Part shown: piece after piece, positions 16,104-38,841 of the stretch
Layout: every line of letters begins with the position of its first letter
Position numbering within the stretch: position 1 is the stretch's first letter
Origin: Candidatus Woesebacteria bacterium
GTDB lineage: Bacteria; Patescibacteriota; Microgenomatia; UBA8517
DNA length: 38,841 nucleotides
Direction of reading: 5' to 3'
Assembly (NCBI GenBank): GCA_016926185.1
Contig: JAFGPD010000019.1
Location: forward strand, 1-38,841
The notes under the pieces: model-generated
What the model was told of the DNA's origin: nothing
The model's database searches: none
The model's input: only the letters and a program-made list of their open reading frames with translations
Position numbers and translations under genes: made by a program

Positions 16104-18239
16104 ATGAGCTTTAAGAATTTATTTAAGTATTTTTTCTATACAACCTCGGTGCTTATCGGGATCTTGATCTTTACAAGTTTTTTCGAATTCATTTTCGTAA
16201 ATAGGGTGGGACTATCTAACAGATCAGTTAAAGGAACTAGTATTTACCTGGCACAAGCTACATGTCAACCACCCGTAGAAGGTTGTGGAAGCAGTCACTA
16301 TTGGGATTTTAGTACATGTTCTTGTGTCTATGACGGATCCTGTGTAGAGCCGGTTTCCGGTTGCGGCTCAGATTATTATTGGGATCACACTGATTGTGTC
16401 TGTGTACCCTACGAAAGTGGAGGAAGTAGTTGTCAGGAACCTGTTACAGGGTGTGGTACAGGATTCGAATGGGATAGTACCGCTTGTACATGTGTGTATT
16501 TAGGAAACTGTTCAGAACCCAGTAGCGGGTGTGGAGCTGATCATTATTGGGATAGTGCCAGTTGCAGTTGTGTTTATTCCGGGACGACTTGTTCGGAACC
16601 AACGGGAGGGTGTGCTAGCAATCATTATTGGGATCAACCATCTTGTTCATGTTTGTACGACGGATCTTGTGGCAGTTCTGCCGGTTCTTGTACAAATGGA
16701 TATTATGATTACGAAACCTGTTCCTGTGTTTATGATTGTACAGAACCTGCAGGTGGCTGTGGAGCAGGTTTTTTCTGGGATGCAAATAAATGTTATTGCG
16801 CTCCCGAGTCAGGGACTAATTGCTATGAACCAATTGGTGGTTGTGGGACAGATTGGTATTGGGATTATGAACTCTGTGAGTGTGTGTCAAATACTTCAGG
16901 GTCTTCAACTGATACAACATTTACACCAACACCTACCACGGTAACATACACAGAGACGAACTCCACATTTGACAGGTTGGCATATGAGTCAGAGACGATC
17001 ATAGGCTGTATAAAAGATAAACTGACAAGTAGTGAATATCAGACCTTTCGCTATAAAATTGCTGATTCTGAAACAGAAAGACAATATATCCAAACTCTTA
17101 GTGAAAAGATCAGGTTTTGCTGGACTCAACATGTAGACCTGTCGAATGATAGTCCACAAGAAGCCTTGTCCTCCACAAGAAACACAATCGAAAACGAGTC
17201 CTGTCTGATCCGTGTAATCGGTGAAGCCGCTTATAAAGACATATATCAAGGTTTAAGAGAGCCAACTGACAGGGAAAGGCTGGCTTTCAAAGGCTGTTAC
17301 GAAACAAAGACATACCGCAAGGTTACTTACAAAACTGATGAGGAAGAGATTGATGACACTGTACATCAATGTCTGAAGACTTCGTTGGGTGATGCTGTGT
17401 ACACAAAAGTGGTAGATGGTCAAAGTCAGCCGACTTCAGTGCAGCTTAAAAAAATTAATGCCTGTTTTGGTGTTGTTGCACAGCCATTCGATGAAGGTTC
17501 GACCTATAAAGCTCCGGACAAGGTCGTAGCTTGTCTTCAGTCCGCTTTAGGAAAAACTGTTTTTAGTCAGATCAACTCAGGCAAAAGAGTACCAACTACG
17601 CAAGAGAGAGAAAAAAGCAAAGCTTGTTTCAATGGTGTCAATCCACTGCAGAAAAAATTTCTGCCACCTCCTGTTGAGGAAGTTCCTTTTTTGGACGAAG
17701 AACCCGGGTTGGTAAAAGTTGCAGTTGCCAATCAAGTTAAAAAGAAGGTGAAAAACAAGGAAGTCGGCGGAGCAGTAGTTCTTTCTGGTAATGGTCCACC
17801 CAACTCTACGGTTAACATTTATATTTATTCAGATCCAATCGTAGTTACGACAGAAACTGACGAGAATGGGGATTGGGTATATGAGCTTAAAAATCCGATC
17901 GATGGTGAAAAGCATATCGCGTATGCAACTGTTAGGAACAGTGAAGGCAGGGTGGTAAGGTCATCTGTTTTTGATTTTACTGTGGTTGCTGCAGACACAG
18001 ATTCCGTTCAGGCTCTTTTGGACGAGTCAAAGTCTTCTGATGCGCAGAAAAAGTTTGTGAAGTCTGCAACCATAATGGTTGCTATTGCTTCTTTGGTAGT
18101 AATAATAATCGGAATTATTGTTTATCTAAAAAATGCAAAGCTTTTAAAAGAAGCCGCAGAAAAGGCTTCCGGTCAGTCAGCGGGTGTTACCTCTGACGGG
18201 AAGAGTGAAGGAGAGAGTGGTTCCGGTCCCGTAAATTGA
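16104..18239 (+). CDS. Secreted/membrane-anchored protein: 8 four-Cys repeats, 4 helical paired-Cys repeats, Ig-like domain, C-terminal TM (start revised to 16104)
   Basis: N-terminal signal/TM; repeats 'C.EP..GCG..YYWD...C.CVY'; repeats 'CL...LG...Y..I..G...PT..ER.....C'; GNGPPNSTVNIYIYSDPIVVTTETDENGDWVYEL Ig-like; VIIIGIIVYLKNAK TM. Confidence 0.85.
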   Translation: MSFKNLFKYFFYTTSVLIGILIFTSFFEFIFVNRVGLSNRSVKGTSIYLAQATCQPPVEGCGSSHYWDFSTCSCVYDGSCVEPVSGCGSDYYWDHTDCVCVPYESGGSSCQEPVTGCGTGFEWDSTACTCVYLGNCSEPSSGCGADHYWDSASCSCVYSGTTCSEPTGGCASNHYWDQPSCSCLYDGSCGSSAGSCTNGYYDYETCSCVYDCTEPAGGCGAGFFWDANKCYCAPESGTNCYEPIGGCGTDWYWDYELCECVSNTSGSSTDTTFTPTPTTVTYTETNSTFDRLAYESETIIGCIKDKLTSSEYQTFRYKIADSETERQYIQTLSEKIRFCWTQHVDLSNDSPQEALSSTRNTIENESCLIRVIGEAAYKDIYQGLREPTDRERLAFKGCYETKTYRKVTYKTDEEEIDDTVHQCLKTSLGDAVYTKVVDGQSQPTSVQLKKINACFGVVAQPFDEGSTYKAPDKVVACLQSALGKTVFSQINSGKRVPTTQEREKSKACFNGVNPLQKKFLPPPVEEVPFLDEEPGLVKVAVANQVKKKVKNKEVGGAVVLSGNGPPNSTVNIYIYSDPIVVTTETDENGDWVYELKNPIDGEKHIAYATVRNSEGRVVRSSVFDFTVVAADTDSVQALLDESKSSDAQKKFVKSATIMVAIASLVVIIIGIIVYLKNAKLLKEAAEKASGQSAGVTSDGKSEGESGSGPVN
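16263..16892 (+). repeat. Eight tandem ~25-30 aa cysteine-rich repeats within the CDS
   Basis: CQPPVEGCGSSHYWDFSTCSCVYDGS / CVEPVSGCGSDYYWDHTDCVCVPY / CQEPVTGCGTGFEWDSTACTCVYLGN / CSEPSSGCGADHYWDSASCSCVYSG / CSEPTGGCASNHYWDQPSCSCLYDGS / CGSSAGSCTNGYYDYETCSCVYD / CTEPAGGCGAGFFWDANKCYCAP / CYEPIGGCGTDWYWDYELCECVS. Confidence 0.95.
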
Positions 18240-22977: not shown

Positions 22978-24531
22978 ATGCTTGCAAAGATCAATAGTGG
23001 AGCGACGGTGGGGCTGGATGCAAGACTCGTTGATGTTGAGGTGGATATTCCCAATGAAGGATTACCCAGTTTTACGATAGTAGGACTTCCTGACAAGGCG
23101 GTAGAAGAAAGCAGGGAAAGGGTGCGATCTGCAATAAAAAACTCCGGCGCGGATTTCCCGACAACTAGAATTACCGTCAATTTAGCCCCTGCTGACCTGC
23201 CAAAAGTAGGTCCCGCATATGATCTTCCTATCGCTTTAGGGATTTTAATAGCTGACGAGCAAATAATGCCAATAAACGAGAAAGCGCTATTTTTTGGTGA
23301 ATTATCTCTTGATGGATCACTTCGTCATACCAACGGGATACTTCCAATGGTCTATATGGCCAAGAAAAAGGGGATTAAGAAAGTTTTCGTGCCAAAGGTG
23401 AATGCAAGAGAGGCGTCTGTTGTTGGAGGAGTGAAGGTTTATCCTGTTGAGACGCTTTTGGAACTGGTCAGGTATTTTTCTGGAACTGTAACAATTGAGC
23501 CGGAGGAGAAACTGGCTTTGAGTAAGTTGATAAAAAGCGCTGAGGCTGAATTTGATTTTTCTGAGATCATCGGACAGGAGCATGCAAAGCGTGCTGCAGA
23601 GATAGCAGCTGCTGGGTCGCACAATATCTACATGAAGGGGACACCAGGGAGTGGTAAAACAATGCTAGCGCGTGCAATTCCGGGAATTTTGCCTCATTTA
23701 ACAGAAGAAGAGGCTTTGGAAGTCACAAAAATTTATTCGATAACCGGAAATTTGGGAGCTGATCAAGCAATTGTAACAACGCGGCCATTCAGAAGTCCAC
23801 ACCATACAACGAGCCGAATTGGTCTTATTGGTGGCGGAACCAACCCTACTCCAGGTGAAGTTTCCCTCGCCCATCGAGGGGTGCTTTTCCTTGATGAATT
23901 CCCTGAGTTTCCGAGAAATGTACTGGAGTCCTTACGTCAGCCAATGGAAGACGGTGTTGTTACAATATCACGTGCAAAAGCAACAGTTACCTACCCTGCT
24001 CAATTTCTTCTAATTTCAGCCTCGAATCCCTGTCCTTGTGGATATTACGGAGATAAAAAGAGGGCTTGCAAGTGTCTTCCGGGTCAAATCGCACGGTATC
24101 AAAAGAGAGTATCGGGACCGATCTTAGATAGAATTGATATTCATGTTGATGTTCCCAGTGTTGATACACAAAAGCTGATAGGAAAAGATGATGGCAATAG
24201 AGAAACCAGCAAAGAAATTCAAAAGAGAGTTCAAAGGGCAAGGGATATACAAACAGAAAGGTTTAAAAAGCTCAACAAGAGTAAAAGAAAAAAGACTATC
24301 AATTCAAATGCTGAGATGAACACAAAGCTAGTTAAAACTTATTGCCCACTCTCCTCTGAGTGTCGCACAATGATGCAAAGTGCAGTTTCAAGTATGAATT
24401 TATCCGCCAGATCTTACTTCAAAGTAATTAAAGTTGCTCGTACTGTGGCAGACCTCGAAGGTTCAGACGAGATCACAACCAACCATCTCGCCGAAGCTCT
24501 CCAGTATAGGCCAAAAGATGATGGAATTTGA
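22978..24531 (+). CDS. comM: YifB/ComM family Mg-chelatase-like AAA+ ATPase
   Basis: MLAKINSGATVGLDARLVDVEVDIPNEGLPSFTIVGLPDKAVEESRERVRSAIKNSG; Walker A GTPGSGKT; FRSPHHTTSRIGLIGGG; CPCGYYGD. Confidence 0.96.
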   Translation: MLAKINSGATVGLDARLVDVEVDIPNEGLPSFTIVGLPDKAVEESRERVRSAIKNSGADFPTTRITVNLAPADLPKVGPAYDLPIALGILIADEQIMPINEKALFFGELSLDGSLRHTNGILPMVYMAKKKGIKKVFVPKVNAREASVVGGVKVYPVETLLELVRYFSGTVTIEPEEKLALSKLIKSAEAEFDFSEIIGQEHAKRAAEIAAAGSHNIYMKGTPGSGKTMLARAIPGILPHLTEEEALEVTKIYSITGNLGADQAIVTTRPFRSPHHTTSRIGLIGGGTNPTPGEVSLAHRGVLFLDEFPEFPRNVLESLRQPMEDGVVTISRAKATVTYPAQFLLISASNPCPCGYYGDKKRACKCLPGQIARYQKRVSGPILDRIDIHVDVPSVDTQKLIGKDDGNRETSKEIQKRVQRARDIQTERFKKLNKSKRKKTINSNAEMNTKLVKTYCPLSSECRTMMQSAVSSMNLSARSYFKVIKVARTVADLEGSDEITTNHLAEALQYRPKDDGI

Positions 24532-24536
24532 TATGA

Positions 24537-25346
24537 CTATTTATTATGATAGGGAGCTGGATGTTGTTCAATTAAATTGTCTAAATAACTTTCGACCTGT
24601 ACGTGTCTGGTATTTCCAATATATGGACAAAAACTTCTATAATCAGGTACTTTATGATCAAAATAAGTTAAAGTCTGTCCATTTTCGATTCTATGAGTAG
24701 GAGATCTTTCTTTTAACCACACATAATCATCATCTCCAATCACCTCTCTCATGGTTTTAATTGTCCTGCCCATAAAAATCTCAACATCTACATCATTTTT
24801 TATAGCTTCTTGGTTGATTTTACTCACAGATTCGTTAGTCATAAATGGAATTACAACAATAAATCTTCTCATGCCAAATCTTTCCGCTCCGAAATGAACA
24901 TGATCACTTACTTGAGTACCAGAGTAGCTGGCATCTTCAATAATTATTCCTGTTTCATATTCACCAACTAGTTGTTTATCAAAATAGTCTACTGTTGGGA
25001 TTGTTAATATGGTATCGTCTGGGAAATATTCTCGGCATAAGCCCTTAACCCACTCAGCACTCCTATGTTTTCCCCCAGAATAATAAATATATCTTGTCTT
25101 CTTGGGATCAAGTGTTACCAACCGCTCTTTTCTGGCCAATTCATAGACTCCTAACAATTCACTTTCGAACTGGTCTTGGCTTATTTTATTTAGTCCTGCT
25201 AATAATTTTTCTGCGACCGCTTTAGCTTGCTCTTTATCCCTAAACAAATTAACAAATTGACCTTTCCACTTCTCTGTTTTTGCTATACTTAATTCCTTAT
25301 TAACAGTTGGAGTATATTGAATTTCAATATTACCTGAATCTACCAT
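24537..25346 (-). CDS. Phosphoribosyltransferase-like protein
   Basis: 'TGIIIEDASYSGTQVSDHV' resembles the PRPP-binding loop; 'RYIYYSGGKHRSAEWVKGL' upstream. Confidence 0.5.
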   Translation of the reverse strand: MVDSGNIEIQYTPTVNKELSIAKTEKWKGQFVNLFRDKEQAKAVAEKLLAGLNKISQDQFESELLGVYELARKERLVTLDPKKTRYIYYSGGKHRSAEWVKGLCREYFPDDTILTIPTVDYFDKQLVGEYETGIIIEDASYSGTQVSDHVHFGAERFGMRRFIVVIPFMTNESVSKINQEAIKNDVDVEIFMGRTIKTMREVIGDDDYVWLKERSPTHRIENGQTLTYFDHKVPDYRSFCPYIGNTRHVQVESYLDNLIEQHPAPYHNK

Positions 25347-30162: not shown

Positions 30163-30435
30163 AGATTCTATCGCGTTGCTCCAGAACGACGATATGATAT
30201 AGATTCTGATTCCAGTTTCGGAATGACGTAGTCTATTTGAGATTCTTCAGTCGAAGACTCCTTCTGAATTACGAGAGAGAAAATAGATTGCTTTGTCGTT
30301 ATTACTTCTCGCAATGACACTTTTATTATTGGGAGAAAATGGATGATAGTATTGGTATAGATTCCGTATCCTAGTCCGTAATGACAATGAACATTTAATA
30401 GGGGAGAGATTCTTCGTTATACTCAGAATGACGAA
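30163..30435. repeat. Cluster of ~6 degenerate 'AGATTCTTCG...CAGAATGACGA' short repeats
   Basis: Units at about 30163-30192, 30201-30228, 30240-30274, 30285-30320, 30359-30388, 30407-30435 share AGATT...GAATGACR / GCAATGACR ends. Confidence 0.7.
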
Positions 30436-31079
30436 TATTTATAAAGTTTCGTGTTTTGGTGGTAGATTTTGCAAACGTTTTGAGTGGCTGGATATTGAAT
30501 ATATGTGTTACTCAATAGGGATTGATAGTCGTTATGTTAATAGTAAATAGTTGATTATTCCTAAGAGGACTATAGTTTGGTGTTTAGCAGTTAGTATTTA
30601 GTACTTAGGAAATTGAGTTAATAGTATATTAAATAATTGTACCGTTTTGTACTTTTTACAATTAGTATAACTTTTATAATACAAAAGAATTAATGTTGGG
30701 GGAATTAGTGCTGTGGAAGTATAAGAAGTTAGAGTAAAGAATCTTTTATTCAGCAAAGCAATAACAAGGATTATAAAAGGAATCAATAGAATTTAATTCA
30801 TAAATCCAGTAGATTAGGTTAAACTTGAGGCTGAGGCTAAAATAGAGATGATACAAGATATAAGATTCACGAATCAAGAATAGGTAATAATAAGGAAGAT
30901 CTTCGAAGAAAACTTTTAATTACCAATAATAGAGGATATCAAAGACACACAAAATACTACATATTGACATTATTAGGATGGTTGGTAACACTTAATGTAG
31001 AGTCAAAATCAGGAAGTTATTGTGAACCTAACTTATGCCTAGAAATACAGTGCGGATAATATAAGGAAAACAGCCTTAA

Positions 31080-34000
31080 ATGAAGAAAATACCTGCCCAA
31101 ACTAAAAAAGAAATCGTACGTAAAGCTCTTTACGAAAATGCTTCAATTAGTGATCTTAGTAGAGGGTACAGCATCTCCCGTAAAGCAATTTATAATTGGA
31201 TCAATAAATACAAAAAAGAATCAGAAGATAAGTCAAAAGCATTTATACCACAGTATGCAAAGGGAAGAAAACATCCAAAAGCAAAAGCTCATGAGATAGA
31301 GAAGAAGCTTCTAAGGATAGTGGCAGATAACCCCAAGATAACTATTAAGCAATTATCATCAAAAGTACCGGTATCTAGTTGGACTGTTTGGAAAATATTG
31401 GACCAAAACAATTTAAACACCAAGGATAAGCGTACTGAGTTTGCTGATACATTTGAAAAACAAAATACTGCAGCAGAAGAAAAAAGGGAAGCTGTAATAA
31501 GAGCAGTAGAGGAAAACGAAAGTGTAACAAAAATTGCAAAAGAATTGGATGTTGCAAGAAAGACTGTCTATAGCTGGATAAAAAGATACAAAAAGGCAAA
31601 AGATCTATCTCTTAAAACTTTCCAGCCAAGATATGTGAGTGGAGAAAAACATCCCAATGCTAAAGTATCAGATGATCTTGAAAAGAAACTTTTGGAAATA
31701 GTGACAGAAGATCCGGATTTGGCGATAAGCGAATTGGCGAATAGTCTTCCTGTTTCGGCATATACCGTATGGAAGCTTTTAGATAAACATAACCTTAATA
31801 CTATTAGTCAGAGAGAGTACTATGCACTTCAAACCTCACAAGCTCTTGAAAAACGTGTACCGTTTGCTTCAATATTAGACTCTTTTGGCTATGTCAGAAA
31901 AGAGCTGGAACTACTTTTACAAGTTTCTCGTAAGATCCCAAAGACAGTTGATCTTCAATTAATATCTCCAATTAAAAGTTACCTTTCAACTTTAATTATT
32001 AGTACTTCAAGACGACTTTCATTATATATAAATAGTTTAAGTAACTATTTGCGCTTTGTAATTAGAAAGGCATCATTTGCACTTGATCAATTGGTTAATG
32101 ATGTTGGCCGTTTCACTCTAAACCTTTCAAGATTTACGCTAACGCGCCCCAGACATTCCTATTATTATGCAACTTTAGTACTACTAATAGTACTTTCACT
32201 TGGATTTGCGGATAGGATAGTCAAACTTATTCCTGAAGAAACTGTGTCCCAGGTAAGCCAGAGACTTTCAGAAAACACTAGACTTGCAGCACTTTTATCA
32301 GAAGAGGAAGAGGAACAAGAAGTAGAAAGACTTATCAGTGGCAATTACATTATAGAAGGAGACACCGACTTACAAGTTACCGGTACACCAAAGTTTAAGA
32401 TCACTAAAGTTGCCAGTGCCTTTGAAGTTGATCGAAAAGATAGTATTGACCTATCTCAGGTAACTCCGACTATAAAACCGGAAGTAACAATAACCGGTCC
32501 AAGCGGTCAAAATATTAAAGATTTTTCATTACAAGAAACTAACGAAGGAGAATTTGAGGTGATCTTATCAGATTTTTCAAAAATTAAGCCGGGGCTATAT
32601 GTGTTGGGTGTAAGCGACGAAACCGGTACGCAGATAACACAAAATTTCAGTTGGGGGATTTTAGCGATAAACACCAACCAGACAACCTATAATACTGATG
32701 AAAATATCGAAATTTTAATCACTGTATTGGATAGCAAAGGAATACCAAAATGTGATGCAGATCTAGCATTGGTTATCAGAAATACAGAAAATGACGACTA
32801 CACGTTAATGACAACAGCAGATAACGAAATAAAAGTAAATGATGGTTGTGAGACAGATCAAAAAACTACAGAACCAGACTACAGTGCATCACTATCTGAA
32901 CTTTCAGAAGGTGAATATGAAGTTGAACTCATTGCCAGTATAGATAGTACAAATCACAAAGTTTCATCTGGATTTAAAGTAGCAGAAGAATCTGAGCTTG
33001 CCGATTTTGAAGTCAGCCGTGCGGCACCAATTAAAGTAGCTTCGGGTGAGGACTACCCAGTTGTTATAAGAATTAAGGCTAATAAGGATCACAAGGGGCA
33101 GGTTATTGATAAAGTCCCCAGTAATTTCCTGGTCAAACCGTTTGGAAAAGCTAAGATTGAGATCGATCCTGAGACCAGTAGTTTGGTAGATGAGGAATTT
33201 AGTGTAAAGGTAAATGGTGAAAATGAGCAGCTTTTGATCTGGGATGTTGATTTTAAGGCTGGTGGAACGTATTCCTTGACTTATGCTTTTTCCGATATGG
33301 GCAGTGATTGGACAAACTACTACCTCGGACCAGTTGAAATTGAGGGAGCGGAGGTAGATAAGATTTGGGAATTCAGGCAGGATCCGAGTGCTCCAGCGGG
33401 TAAGGTTACGCAAAAGATGCGCTACGGTAGGGTCAGGGTGGAGGAAAAAATGCTTGAGATCAGGGGCAGGAAAATGAAGACCTTCATGGAGAAAGCTCAT
33501 GTAAAGGCAGGGGAAACTCCAAAGATAGTACTGGAAGATCTAACATTATCTGATTCCGGCTCGCAAAATCCGGGATTGATGCAAAGACTTTTGGGAATTG
33601 CGCAGGAAAATGTTGATGACAGCCAATTTACTACCGGAATAAAAATAGAGGTAATTGATAATGACGGTAATAGGGAATATGTTACCAACATTGAGCAAAT
33701 TACTGAAACAGTAGAAATCCCACCACAATACTTAAAACCCGGCAGACACATAGTAACAATAACGGATGTTGAGACGGGCAACTTTGTTGAACAAGAGTTT
33801 TTATACGGTGTTTTGGCACTTAACTTGAATAAATCTGTTTATAGTTTGGGAGAAAGTACTTATATTCAAATGGCATCGCTTGACGATGGAGGCCAGACTG
33901 TGTGTGACAGTAACTTAGAATTAACAGTTTATGATCCTGAGGGAGGCGTTGAAACATACAGCATGCAAGAAGGAACGATCAGTGTTAGTGATGAGTGTCT

Positions 34001-37000
34001 ACTAAATAACGTAACTGATGAGCCTGATTACTTTGTTTATTACCCTATAAACAATCTAGGTGAATATCGTACAGTTTTGACTAATCTTGAAAATGGTTAC
34101 TCGGTAGATGGGAACTTTCTAGTTGAGGAATCTCCCCAATACTCGATTGAACGTGTTGGAGCAACACGAATAAATCCTTTTAAAGCTAAATATGTGATGA
34201 CGTTCAATGTTGAGTCAAAGGATAATTTTTCTGGAGAATTGATCGAAACAGTTCCTGATGGTTTCCAAATTTCTGAGTCGGATGAATTTTCGGTGAATGG
34301 CCAAGAGATATTATGGAGTTTAGAACTTAATGCAGGAGAGCAACAATCTTTTATATATGAGTATCAAGCACCGAAAGTGTCACCTGAACTATATCTACTC
34401 GGTGAGGCAAGACTCGTAAATGATGGAAACGAGGTTTTCTCCGAATATAGAAAATGGCAGCTTGCATCTGACGCAACTATATATATAACGAGCGGGACCA
34501 GTTGGCAGGTGCCGAGCGACTGGAATGATAGTGACAATACTGTTGAAGTTATTGGAGGCGGAGGCGGAGGTGCAAATGGAGCGGCAGAGTCAGGTGGTAA
34601 CGGAGGGGTCGGCGGAGGCGGAGGCGGAGGCGGAGGCTATGCAATCGCTACAAATGTGGACCTAACACCGGATGATTATGTTACTGTGCAAGTTGGACAG
34701 GGAGGAACCGTCGGAAATCCCGGCACACAAACTTATTTTAATGGAGGCAGTTGCGCAACCTCTTCCGTTTGTGCAACAGGCGGAGGTGCAGCGTCAGGAG
34801 CAACAGGGGGAACGGCAGGAACTTATTCTGTAGGAACAGGATATTCAGGAGGGTCAGGGGGCGGTGGAGGCGGTGTGGCCAATGCGGGTGGTGGAGGTGG
34901 AGGAGGTGGCGGCGCGGGTGGACCTAATGCAGCCGGTGATGGTGGCACAATAGGATCTTCTGCTTCAGGAAATAGTGGAGGGGCAGGTGGTGGTGGAGGA
35001 CAAGGGGACGGAACAAGCGGAGGCAGCGGAGGAACCGGAGGAACTGCCGGTGGAGGAACTGGAGGAAATGGCGGAAACGGAACTGAATGGGATTCAACGC
35101 ATGGTTCAGGCGGAGGCTCAGGAGGCGGAGGCGGAGGCAGCAGAAATGGCAATGGAGGACCTGCCGGAACAGCTGGAACTTATGGTGCGGGCGGTGCAGG
35201 TGGCGGAGGTGAGGGGCGTGGTGGCACGACATTTGGTTCGGGAGCATCGGGAAGAAATGGATTGATCGTTGTTGATTATACCCCGCCACCCAATTCTCCC
35301 CCGACGATCAACGTTGACGAGCCGGATGGGTCCGGTGATGAGATCGCGGAAGGGGCTAACTTCACCGTCCAATACGATCTTGAGGATACAGATGACACTG
35401 TAACGGCCGACTTTTACTATGATACAGATGGCTCCGGCCTTGACGGAGTTGCAATATCAGGTTGTCAGGATCAACCTGAAGACACTGACAACACATGTAC
35501 TTGGGATACAACAGGAGTTACTCCTGGAACATATTATGTTTATGGTGTGACAAGTGATGGGGTCAACCCTCAGCAAAGTGATTACTCATCCGGGGTTGTG
35601 ACGATCAATGATGCTCCAACGATCAATGTTGATGAGCCGGATGGAACAAGCGATGAGATCGCGGAAGGGGCTAACTTCACGGTTCAGTATGATCTGGATG
35701 ATACTGATGATCTGGTTACAGCTGACTTTTATTATGACACCAATGGGAGTGGTCTTGACGGAGTTGCAATAAGTGGATGTGCAGGTCAGGGAGAAGCAAC
35801 AAATGGAACTTGCAGCTGGGACACAACGGGGGTAACACCGGGAACATATTATGTATACGGAACTGTGAGCGACTCAGTTAATTCGCAGGTTTCTGATTAC
35901 TCTGCCGGGGTAGTAACTATAAATGACGCACCAACAATAAATGTTGATGAGCCGGATGGAGCTGGTGATGAGATCGCAGAAGGTGCAAATTTTACAGTGC
36001 AATATGATCTTGCCGACAGTGATGACTCGGTTACAGCTGATTTTTACTACGATACTGACACTACAGGTCTAAATGGGGTGGCGATCAGCGGATGTTCCGC
36101 ACAAGGTGAGGGAACGAACCAGACATGTTCCTGGGACACAACAGGTGTGACCCCGGGCACTTACTATATTTATGGAACTGTCGATGATGGTGTGAATTCG
36201 CCGGTAAGTGACTATTCATCTGGAGTGGTGACAATAAATGATACACCGACGATCACGGTTGATGAGCCGGACGGTGTGGGAGATACTATTTTGGAAGGAG
36301 CGAACTTTACCGTTCAATATGATCTTGATGATACTGATGATCTGGTTACAGCTGACTTTTATTACGATACAGATGATTTGGGACTTAACGGTTCAGCTAT
36401 AGCAGGTTGCCAAGATCAGGATGAAGATACAGACAACACTTGCACTTGGGACACAACGGGAGTAATACCAGGTACTTATTATGTTTACGGAATTGTCGAT
36501 GATGGTGTGAATTCTCCTGTCAGTGATTATTCCTCTGGGGTTGTGACAATAAATGACGCTCCTGATATTACAGTTGACGAGCCGGATGGAGCAGGTGATG
36601 AAATTGCGGAGGGTGCAAACTTTACAGTCCAATATGATCTAGCAGACACAGATAATGATGTAACCGCGGATTTTTATTATGACACAGATGACTCAGGACT
36701 AGACGGATCGGCTATCAGTAGTTGTACAGGACAGGGTGAAGGTATAAATCAAACCTGTATTTGGGATACCACGGGTGTAACACCAGGAACTTACTATGTT
36801 TACGGGATAGTTGACGATGGGACAAATCCTCAACAGGATGATTACTCATCCGGGGTAGTGACAATTAATGATGCTCCAACAATTAATGTTGATGAGCCGG
36901 ATGGGGTAAGTGACACTATCCAGGAAGATGCCAACTTCACAGTGCAGTATGATCTAGCCGATACAGATGACGATGTTACAGCTGACTTTTACTACGATAC

Positions 37001-38841
37001 TGATAGTTCTGGTCTTGACGGAGTTGCGATAAGTGGATGTGCGGGCCAAGGGGAAGGAACAGACCAAACCTGCATTTGGGATACTAATGGAGTAACTCCA
37101 GGAACTTACTATGTTTACGGGATTGTAGATGATGGAGTTAATTCGGCAGTTGATGATTATTCATCTGGGGTTGTAACAATAACTGATGCGCCGGATATCA
37201 CGGTTGATGAACCTGATGGAGTAAGTGATGAGGTGACTGAGGGAGATAATTTCACCGTTCAATATGATCTAGCAGATACAGATGATGATGTTACGGCAGA
37301 TTTCTACTACGATTCTAACGACTCAGGTCTTGATGGAACGGCAATATCAGGATGCCAAAATCAAGGTGAAGGAACCGACCAGACTTGCATATGGGATACA
37401 ACAGGAATAACCCCTGGGAATTATTATGTCTATGGGGTTGCCGACGATGGGTACAATCCTGCGCAGAATGATTATTCGTCGGGTGTTGTGACAATTATTT
37501 CAGGGTCAAACGATCCTCCAACCATAAATGTTGATGAGCCGGATGGAGTAAGTGATGAAATTGCTGTTGATGCCAACTTTACAGTCCAATACGACCTTGA
37601 TGATACCGACGATACAGTTACAGCAGATTTTTATTATGATACAAACTCAACAGGTCTAGATGGAGTTGCAATATCGGGTTGTCAAAATGAAGCGGAAGGA
37701 ACTGACCAAACTTGTACTTGGGATACAACAGGGGTAAGTGCAGGTACCTATTATGTCTACGGGATAGTAGATGATGGAACAAACCCCCCTGTTGACGATT
37801 ATTCTTCCGGGGTAGTGACAATTAATGATGCACCGACGATTAATGTTGACGAACCAGATGGAGTGAGCGATGAAATCGGAGAAGGAACGAACTTTACAGT
37901 CCAATATGACCTTGACGACATTGTCGATACGGTGACAGCTGATTTTTATTACGACTCCGACAGTTCAGGTCTTGACGGCGTTGCAATCAGCGGTTGTCAG
38001 GATCAAGGTGAAGGGACAAACGAAACATGCACTTGGGACACAACCGGAGTGAGCCCTGGAACATATTATGTTTATGGGATCGTCGATGATGGATTCAACG
38101 CTCAACAGGATGACTACTCAAGTGGGGTAGTGACGATCAATGATGCACCGGAAATAAATGTTGATGAGCCGGATGGAATAAGTGATGAAATAACAGAGGG
38201 TGCCAATTTCACAGTGCAATATGATCTTGCCGATACAGATGATGATGTAACGGCTGATTTTTACTATGATGCCAACGCAACTGGTCTTGATGGAACATTG
38301 ATTGCGGGATGTCAAACGCAAGCCGAAGGGACGAATCAAACATGCACATGGGACACAACAGGTGTGAGCCCCGGAGCATATTATGTTTACGGAATTGTTG
38401 ATGACGGAGTTAATTCTTCCGATGATAACTATTCAGCCGGAGTGGTAACAATAAATGACTCACCGGATATAACAGTTGACGAACCTGATGGCGTGAGTGA
38501 TGAAATTGCAGAAGGTGCCAACTTCACAGTTCAATATGATCTTTCCGACACCGATGATACAGTTACAGCTGATTTTTATTACGATACGGACAGCTCTGGT
38601 CTTGATGGTGTTGCGATAGCAGGTTGTGCGGGTCAAGGAGAAGGTATAAACCAGACTTGCAGTTGGGATACAACAGGAGTGTCACCTGGGACATATTATG
38701 TGTATGGTGTTTCCTACGATGGATTTAACCCATCGGAAAATGATTATTCATCAGGTGTTGTGACTATCAATGACCCTCCTACTATCAATGTTGATCAACC
38801 AGACGGAGTATCTGATGAGATTGCAGAAGGTGCCAACTTCA
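31080..38841 (+). CDS. Giant surface protein, 3' end outside window: duplicated HTH modules - TM - duplicated beta-rich ectodomain - Gly-rich domain - tandem Ig-like repeats
   Basis: Continuous frame read by hand from ATG 31080 (in-frame TAA at 31077, AAGGAAA upstream) to the window end without a stop; absent from the ORF track because no stop is in the window. Confidence 0.92.
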   Translation, partial: MKKIPAQTKKEIVRKALYENASISDLSRGYSISRKAIYNWINKYKKESEDKSKAFIPQYAKGRKHPKAKAHEIEKKLLRIVADNPKITIKQLSSKVPVSSWTVWKILDQNNLNTKDKRTEFADTFEKQNTAAEEKREAVIRAVEENESVTKIAKELDVARKTVYSWIKRYKKAKDLSLKTFQPRYVSGEKHPNAKVSDDLEKKLLEIVTEDPDLAISELANSLPVSAYTVWKLLDKHNLNTISQREYYALQTSQALEKRVPFASILDSFGYVRKELELLLQVSRKIPKTVDLQLISPIKSYLSTLIISTSRRLSLYINSLSNYLRFVIRKASFALDQLVNDVGRFTLNLSRFTLTRPRHSYYYATLVLLIVLSLGFADRIVKLIPEETVSQVSQRLSENTRLAALLSEEEEEQEVERLISGNYIIEGDTDLQVTGTPKFKITKVASAFEVDRKDSIDLSQVTPTIKPEVTITGPSGQNIKDFSLQETNEGEFEVILSDFSKIKPGLYVLGVSDETGTQITQNFSWGILAINTNQTTYNTDENIEILITVLDSKGIPKCDADLALVIRNTENDDYTLMTTADNEIKVNDGCETDQKTTEPDYSASLSELSEGEYEVELIASIDSTNHKVSSGFKVAEESELADFEVSRAAPIKVASGEDYPVVIRIKANKDHKGQVIDKVPSNFLVKPFGKAKIEIDPETSSLVDEEFSVKVNGENEQLLIWDVDFKAGGTYSLTYAFSDMGSDWTNYYLGPVEIEGAEVDKIWEFRQDPSAPAGKVTQKMRYGRVRVEEKMLEIRGRKMKTFMEKAHVKAGETPKIVLEDLTLSDSGSQNPGLMQRLLGIAQENVDDSQFTTGIKIEVIDNDGNREYVTNIEQITETVEIPPQYLKPGRHIVTITDVETGNFVEQEFLYGVLALNLNKSVYSLGESTYIQMASLDDGGQTVCDSNLELTVYDPEGGVETYSMQEGTISVSDECLLNNVTDEPDYFVYYPINNLGEYRTVLTNLENGYSVDGNFLVEESPQYSIERVGATRINPFKAKYVMTFNVESKDNFSGELIETVPDGFQISESDEFSVNGQEILWSLELNAGEQQSFIYEYQAPKVSPELYLLGEARLVNDGNEVFSEYRKWQLASDATIYITSGTSWQVPSDWNDSDNTVEVIGGGGGGANGAAESGGNGGVGGGGGGGGGYAIATNVDLTPDDYVTVQVGQGGTVGNPGTQTYFNGGSCATSSVCATGGGAASGATGGTAGTYSVGTGYSGGSGGGGGGVANAGGGGGGGGGAGGPNAAGDGGTIGSSASGNSGGAGGGGGQGDGTSGGSGGTGGTAGGGTGGNGGNGTEWDSTHGSGGGSGGGGGGSRNGNGGPAGTAGTYGAGGAGGGGEGRGGTTFGSGASGRNGLIVVDYTPPPNSPPTINVDEPDGSGDEIAEGANFTVQYDLEDTDDTVTADFYYDTDGSGLDGVAISGCQDQPEDTDNTCTWDTTGVTPGTYYVYGVTSDGVNPQQSDYSSGVVTINDAPTINVDEPDGTSDEIAEGANFTVQYDLDDTDDLVTADFYYDTNGSGLDGVAISGCAGQGEATNGTCSWDTTGVTPGTYYVYGTVSDSVNSQVSDYSAGVVTINDAPTINVDEPDGAGDEIAEGANFTVQYDLADSDDSVTADFYYDTDTTGLNGVAISGCSAQGEGTNQTCSWDTTGVTPGTYYIYGTVDDGVNSPVSDYSSGVVTINDTPTITVDEPDGVGDTILEGANFTVQYDLDDTDDLVTADFYYDTDDLGLNGSAIAGCQDQDEDTDNTCTWDTTGVIPGTYYVYGIVDDGVNSPVSDYSSGVVTINDAPDITVDEPDGAGDEIAEGANFTVQYDLADTDNDVTADFYYDTDDSGLDGSAISSCTGQGEGINQTCIWDTTGVTPGTYYVYGIVDDGTNPQQDDYSSGVVTINDAPTINVDEPDGVSDTIQEDANFTVQYDLADTDDDVTADFYYDTDSSGLDGVAISGCAGQGEGTDQTCIWDTNGVTPGTYYVYGIVDDGVNSAVDDYSSGVVTITDAPDITVDEPDGVSDEVTEGDNFTVQYDLADTDDDVTADFYYDSNDSGLDGTAISGCQNQGEGTDQTCIWDTTGITPGNYYVYGVADDGYNPAQNDYSSGVVTIISGSNDPPTINVDEPDGVSDEIAVDANFTVQYDLDDTDDTVTADFYYDTNSTGLDGVAISGCQNEAEGTDQTCTWDTTGVSAGTYYVYGIVDDGTNPPVDDYSSGVVTINDAPTINVDEPDGVSDEIGEGTNFTVQYDLDDIVDTVTADFYYDSDSSGLDGVAISGCQDQGEGTNETCTWDTTGVSPGTYYVYGIVDDGFNAQQDDYSSGVVTINDAPEINVDEPDGISDEITEGANFTVQYDLADTDDDVTADFYYDANATGLDGTLIAGCQTQAEGTNQTCTWDTTGVSPGAYYVYGIVDDGVNSSDDNYSAGVVTINDSPDITVDEPDGVSDEIAEGANFTVQYDLSDTDDTVTADFYYDTDSSGLDGVAIAGCAGQGEGINQTCSWDTTGVSPGTYYVYGVSYDGFNPSENDYSSGVVTINDPPTINVDQPDGVSDEIAEGANF
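31092..31840 (+). other. Two tandem copies of a bipartite transposase/resolvase-like HTH module at the N-terminus of the giant protein
   Basis: ISDLSRGYSISRKAIYNWINKYKK...GRKHPKAKAHEIEKKLLRIVADNPKITIKQLSSKVPVSSWTVWKILDQNNLNT vs VTKIAKELDVARKTVYSWIKRYKK...GEKHPNAKVSDDLEKKLLEIVTEDPDLAISELANSLPVSAYTVWKLLDKHNLNT. Confidence 0.9.
32160..32210 (+). other. Predicted transmembrane helix in the giant protein
   Basis: YYYATLVLLIVLSLGFA preceded by basic residues (RPRH). Confidence 0.85.
34477..35279 (+). other. Glycine-rich domain in the giant protein
   Basis: TIYITSGTSWQVPSDWNDSDNTVEVIGGGGGG...GGGGGGGGGYAIATNVDLTPDDYVTVQVGQGG...GRNGLIVVDYT: layout of phage tail-fibre-like Gly-rich domains. Confidence 0.85.
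35301..38841 (+). repeat. At least 12 tandem 315-bp (105-aa) Ig-like repeats, the last cut by the window end
   Basis: Unit starts 35301, 35616, 35931, 36246, 36561, 36876, 37191, 37518, 37833, 38148, 38463, 38778; spacing 315 bp except one of 327 bp. Confidence 0.97.

Follow-up and report, generated by a model that had tools for sequence, protein, structure and literature searches.

A membrane-anchored giant surface protein of Candidatus Woesebacteria carries transposase-type helix-turn-helix modules that probably read the promoter of its own gene

The window, i.e., the whole stretch of 38,841 nucleotides analysed here, is the entire contig C29 of a Candidatus Woesebacteria genome (1.11 Mb, 57 contigs, 94% complete). 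An open reading frame on its plus strand (31080..38840) starts with ATG and encodes 2587 residues with no stop up to the contig end, where the frame is open and the C-terminus of the protein is missing. The protein consists of several distinct parts, all encoded on the plus strand. Two bipartite helix-turn-helix (HTH) modules of the transposase type come first: module 1 (residues 1-118; 31080..31433) was delimited by Pfam, alignment and structure prediction, and module 2 (residues 126-255; 31455..31844), which is 42% identical to module 1, by Pfam, structure prediction and the operator co-variation described below. A basic cytoplasmic linker (residues 256-361; 31845..32162; pI 10.6, net charge +10) leads to a single transmembrane (TM) helix, placed by hydropathy at about residues 362-384 (32163..32231). 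Beyond it, a local HMM detected two MG2-like ectodomains, the former at residues 504-756 (32589..33347; iE 4e-64) and the latter at residues 887-1133 (33738..34478; iE 5e-85, with a weak Pfam MG2 match). The translation then shows a Gly-rich stretch of approximate limits (34560..35270) and Ig-like repeats of about 90 residues each (35271..38840), 11 of them full and one cut. A repeat search found no continuation of the Ig-like array on any other contig of the genome, and a protein-based scan of the genome contigs gave a single spurious Gly-rich match.

The HTH region (residues 5-72 and 131-263) was matched above cut-offs by the Pfam families HTH_28, HTH_32, HTH_Tnp_1, HTH_23 and HTH_Tnp_Tc3_2. 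NCBIfam models of IS481/IS630 transposases were matched over their first ~125-128 positions only, leaving the catalytic part unmatched, and no DDE domain was present among the 25 Pfam families listed for the protein. AlphaFold, run on the window sequence, predicted tri-helical HTH units, the better ones with pLDDT values of about 80-90, in models of low overall pTM (0.29 and 0.37). A Foldseek search with the single-sequence model yielded nothing significant; the top match, a weak one, was the Mos1 transposase. The two modules represent a tandem duplication of a bipartite, two-HTH unit, with four HTHs in total.

As for the topology, the ectodomain is acidic (pI 4.3) in comparison to the basic linker, which fits the positive-inside rule for a cytoplasmic HTH. 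In the relatives described below, two TM helices lie between the HTH part and a cytosolic GT2 domain, which likewise places the HTH in the cytoplasm. Other MG domains follow a hydrophobic N-terminus in HTH-less proteins, and this arrangement makes it very likely that the ectodomain is exported. Of the traits of a giant repeat adhesin, the window protein has a long repetitive region of predicted export; an adhesive role is putative.

In the surroundings of the gene, the 1.3-kb gap before it contains, at 30190-30440, non-coding, diverged repeats of the GGAATGACG/CAGAATGACG type. Elsewhere in the window, a marginal PRTase-CE match (24537-25346, minus strand; score 27.2 against a cut-off of 27) adjoins a comM-like gene (22978-24531). 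Rfam and tRNA searches of the window gave no matches. On contig C11 of the same genome (locus L044), a reverse-transcriptase-like gene (16129-17337) was identified by reading the sequence; a Gly-rich repeat protein and a TM-MG protein are encoded upstream of it, and it is possibly part of a diversity-generating retroelement.

A search of 76 relatives with residues 1-400 revealed the same N-terminus on long frames in other genera. A profile search then matched 28 of the 374 genomes of the class; six had only weak matches in transposase-sized frames and were set aside, so that the membrane form counts 22 of the 374 genomes, and four further genomes elsewhere in the phylum hold the family. Most relatives have the order HTH-HTH-TM-TM-GT2-TMs-ectodomain, and their GT2 core scores as PgaC/CelA-like, i.e., as a GT2 glycan synthase. 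Three proteins are GT2-less: that of the window, L111 (2504 aa) and the compact L118 (493 aa), which comprises one module, a TM helix and an MG domain. No GT2 core was found in the genomes of these three at E<=1e-15. The window protein has the HTH N-terminus, the operator and the MG ectodomain of its relatives; in L035, the MG domain that stands behind the GT2 core is the same as the one behind the TM helix of the window protein. The nearest module 2 is 36% identical to that of the window.

The original prediction had read from this one frame two tandem bipartite transposase-type modules with four HTHs, no DDE domain after them, one TM helix after a cytoplasmic linker, and a repeat region. This anatomy was borne out: Pfam, the identity between the modules and AlphaFold agree on the HTHs, and the same N-terminus heads membrane proteins across the class. 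The order of HTH, TM helix and ectodomain was found across many genera with no assembly join, and a downstream start codon was looked for in the homologues and not found, the start of the window gene being aligned with theirs. Collectively, these observations support the proposal that a transposase-type DNA-binding domain forms the cytoplasmic end of a membrane-anchored surface protein.

Two further features of the relatives were observed. L030, L032, L035 and L063 carry at their C-termini PEN/PEK, a hydrophobic stretch and a Lys/Arg-rich tail, which together look like a sorting or anchoring signal. Moreover, contigs end within HTH-GT2 genes at stretches that are near-identical between paralogues (about 92-100% over 30-290 bases) with differing HTHs, as in genomes G020 (L028, L039, L040), G213 (L104, L107), G235 (L110, L126) and G098 (L108, L116, L119); near-identical core stretches with unlike HTHs suggest recombination between paralogues.

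The genes of the family are preceded by long upstream gaps, with a median of 656 bases against 53 for all gaps at the same loci. Comparison of these upstream regions across family genes revealed a common site (in short, TTGAC...CCCAT..GGTAACA). It is composed of TTGAC, a spacer that contains CCCAT or a related sequence, and GGTAACA, GTTAACA or GTTTACA at the right end. In the window, the promoter/operator-like site is TTGACATTATTAGGATGGTTGGTAACACT (30964..30992, plus strand), 116 bases 5' of the ATG; a repeat search of the upstream gap did not reveal this operator. The site lies <=150 nt from the start in 37 of the 44 family genes, including the GT2-less L111 and L118, and the other seven have no clear site there. 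In leave-one-out tests with a position weight matrix (PWM), the site came first at its own locus for 30 of the 37 genes and within the first three for 35, the sites of L136 and L138 receiving low scores. The 334 kb of control loci, which include HTH-less MG genes and MerR giants, gave two matches at 14 bits, and neither has TTGAC in place. A PWM that excludes the window ranks the window site 1 over both strands of the 38.8 kb, and this site is the sole match with <=3 mismatches in the 1.11 Mb genome. Among 309 genomes, the family pattern has 11 matches (reversed control, 0), and by coordinate comparison each of them immediately precedes an HTH membrane gene. The -10 element of the window site is weak and a consensus promoter scan does not call the site, so that its place in a promoter is a predicted one. 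A relic of transposon ends was considered as the source of the operator and rejected, the site being absent from seven loci with transposase-type genes.

Operator distance tracks HTH module distance (Mantel r=0.52, P=2e-4, n=37), and it does so after removal of the GT2-core distance (partial Mantel r=0.55, n=24) and, unchanged, after thinning of related modules; the GT2 core, in contrast, does not track the operator (r=0.05). The strongest residue-base pair overall is formed by residue 161 and the base preceding TAACA, with a mutual information of 1.24 versus a maximum of 0.89 in 200 permutations. Lys goes with G in 15/15 cases, Phe with C in 2/2 and other residues with T in 20/20 (Fisher 1e-10, a simple P value that ignores kinship and is thus too small). 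Residue 161 is located in the recognition helix, where it adjoins the invariant Arg160, and the DNA-facing positions of this helix are the most conserved part. In the window gene, Lys161 (codon at 31560..31562, plus strand) is paired with G. Five genomes hold both residue-161 types, each gene with its matching site. In the second HTH of the module, His at position 228 goes with CC in 23 of 24 cases. Most members have two modules, and the single site shows a code for the last one. These data argue strongly that the fused HTH functions in a sequence-specific manner, with its own promoter as the predicted target, and they support a DNA-recognition constraint that still acts on it.

A parallel was encountered among MerR-type proteins. 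MerR-type genes lie near several family members, and seven of them encode a C-terminal TM helix. All seven (L029 1809-2237, L030 6648-6950, L039 1093-1737, L035 2871-3452, L036 7364-8047, L102 1574-1876 and L119 3486-3974) are beside HTH-GT2 genes, three of them immediately divergent. The TM-bearing MerR is a second putative membrane-tethered DNA-binding protein at these loci. A search with these proteins revealed giant frames that begin with one MerR domain or with two in tandem (L161-L172 and L174-L179; full frames L180-L197). Among the matches listed, at least 56 genomes have a MerR match in a frame of 700 aa or more. All 18 long cases inspected contain fibre-like repeats and a single TM helix; the giants reach 4721 aa, and two of the three examined contain an S74 chaperone domain (Peptidase_S74). 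A promoter site like TTGACAAATCTATGCAAATCTATGTA was found at 14 of the 18 giants, the private site consisting of the direct repeats CAAATCTATG. Scanning 374 genomes for it gave 17 matches, one per genome, and no control match; by coordinates, 17/17 lie upstream of a MerR-TM-giant gene. With a private site of their own, the MerR giants show the same design with an unrelated DNA-binding domain. A membrane-MerR profile had no match in the window genome at 1e-6.

The anatomy, the conserved private promoter site and the co-variation between HTH residue and operator base can be read from the sequences themselves. They suggest that the window protein probably unites in one polypeptide a surface product and the membrane-tethered, autogenous regulator of its transcription. 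Physical binding to DNA, the sign of regulation and any signal from outside are inferred. The two transposase-type HTH modules would reside in the cytoplasm, the TM helix would span the membrane, and a fibre outside would be formed by the MG2-like, Gly-rich and Ig-like parts. The last HTH module would recognise the promoter site of ~25 bp, which occurs once in the genome, and the protein would thereby adjust the transcription of its own gene; with one genomic site, it would be able to act on its own gene only. Most likely, negative feedback would limit how many copies of this very costly fibre are made, and the state of the ectodomain may tune it. Within this autogenous reading we lean towards repression, given the large product, the overlap of the site with the likely promoter and the precedent of PutA, which represses its own gene (PMC5293562). 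Activation is possible as well, since the -10 element is weak and MerR proteins often activate from spacer sites.

A rather unlikely alternative, which nevertheless deserves consideration, is a contact sensor whose ectodomain would sense a host cell or surface and switch the HTH at its own promoter, resulting in positive feedback or commitment, in the manner of ToxR or CadC with itself as the target. The compact HTH-TM-MG protein L118, the long upstream regions and the weak -10 element, which fits activation, are consistent with such a sensor, as is the HTH-TM-ectodomain layout, which occurs in transmembrane regulators (PMC11856585, PMC6320335). However, neither a signal nor a ligand is apparent, sensor domains do not typically consist of giant repeats or GT2 cores, and a site private to the protein's own gene means that no response genes are reached. 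The original prediction had suggested a one-component contact sensor, a chromosome-to-envelope tether or a DNA-uptake or surface link. A general tether, a role in DNA uptake or a sensor driving a regulon is not favoured now, as the sole such site found in the genome lies in the gene's own promoter. The neighbours listed for the relatives show no link to a pilus or comM. A physical anchor devoid of regulatory purpose, which would hold the fibre to the nucleoid or the gene to the membrane (as a tether or an aid to transertion), is improbable. Binding of a membrane protein to its own gene would indeed localise that gene, and the localisation of CadC depends on DNA binding (PMC6320335). Yet one promoter-type site per genome provides at most one or two anchors, and a promoter is the least sensible place for a pure tether.

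The site might instead be read by another regulator, e.g., the neighbouring MerR, with a different role for the HTH of the surface protein. This is also improbable, if marginally less so than the anchor: although MerR-type genes, some with a C-terminal TM helix, adjoin several family members, the operator follows the fused HTH rather than the GT2 core, the recognition-helix residue predicts the base even between paralogues within one genome, and the window genome lacks a membrane-MerR profile match at the threshold given above. It is very improbable that the HTH fold has become a protein-binding module devoid of DNA recognition, as RodZ, an HTH-TM-outside protein that binds MreB, would suggest, considering that the DNA-facing positions of the recognition helix are the most conserved and co-vary with the operator. 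Least credible of all is an artefact in which a transposase HTH and a surface gene were brought together by a wrong assembly join or an accident of frame. The genome is a draft and the gene is open at the contig end, but many genera have the fusion, among them one with a one-contig genome (G010, L030), and GT2-less forms exist in two other genomes; for the family, the recurrence of the fusion refutes an artefact.

The autogenous regulator favoured here would, if confirmed, represent a new form of surface-structure control, in which a single polypeptide serves as both structure and regulator and has a one-site regulon. It would imply that transposase-type DNA-binding domains were turned into membrane-bound regulators, and that the same design, with an unrelated MerR domain and fibres of up to 4,700 aa, is present in a sizeable share of the class. 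It seems plausible on balance that this is a general strategy in a large group of small-genome bacteria: costly surface fibres and glycan synthases would each have a transcription factor of their own as the cytoplasmic end. Such factors would have arisen at least twice, from HTH types unrelated to each other (paired-like transposase type and MerR), and each would serve one private operator in its own promoter, so that the product counts or senses its surface copies at the membrane. For organisms that are rarely culturable, the family also provides regulators, operators and a recognition code that can be tested in E. coli assays. Membrane-tethered and autogenous regulators are known kinds; in the open-access literature, we found no description of HTH-TM-giant or HTH-GT2 fusions, i.e., of fusion to giant fibres or glycan synthases with a one-site regulon.

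Among the known systems, ToxR/CadC-type regulators, ChiS and TfoS bind DNA from the membrane (PMC11856585, PMC6320335). They resemble the window protein in combining a cytoplasmic DNA-binding domain, a membrane helix and an outside domain in one polypeptide. The HTH of ToxR/CadC is an OmpR-type winged helix, whereas that of the window protein is of the transposase type; indeed, Trans_reg_C, the OmpR-type winged helix, is absent among the Pfam matches listed for it. The outside part also differs, being here a giant fibre with or without a GT2 synthase, and the sole site found is in the protein's own promoter. PutA differs from the window protein, which has an HTH and is membrane-anchored, in that it uses a ribbon-helix-helix domain and is no integral membrane protein. 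Both carry an N-terminal DNA-binding domain on a protein with another job, with control of its own gene, predicted in the present case; PutA is an enzyme that acts as the autogenous repressor of its own gene (PMC5293562). As for an autogenous regulator, an operator-like site is present in the window gene's own promoter.

The transposases of the IS481, IS630 and Tc1-mariner types share with the window protein the bipartite HTH unit, as reflected in the Pfam and NCBIfam matches and the weak Mos1 fold match. They differ in that the window protein has no catalytic domain, and the operator was not seen near the transposase genes examined. Processive GT2 synthases (PgaC/IcaA, CelA) match the middle part of most relatives, although the window protein itself is devoid of the GT2 core; we know of no such HTH in the known synthases of this type. 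RodZ likewise combines an HTH, a TM helix and an outside domain. Its HTH binds MreB, whereas in the window family the DNA-contact positions are conserved and co-vary with the operator.
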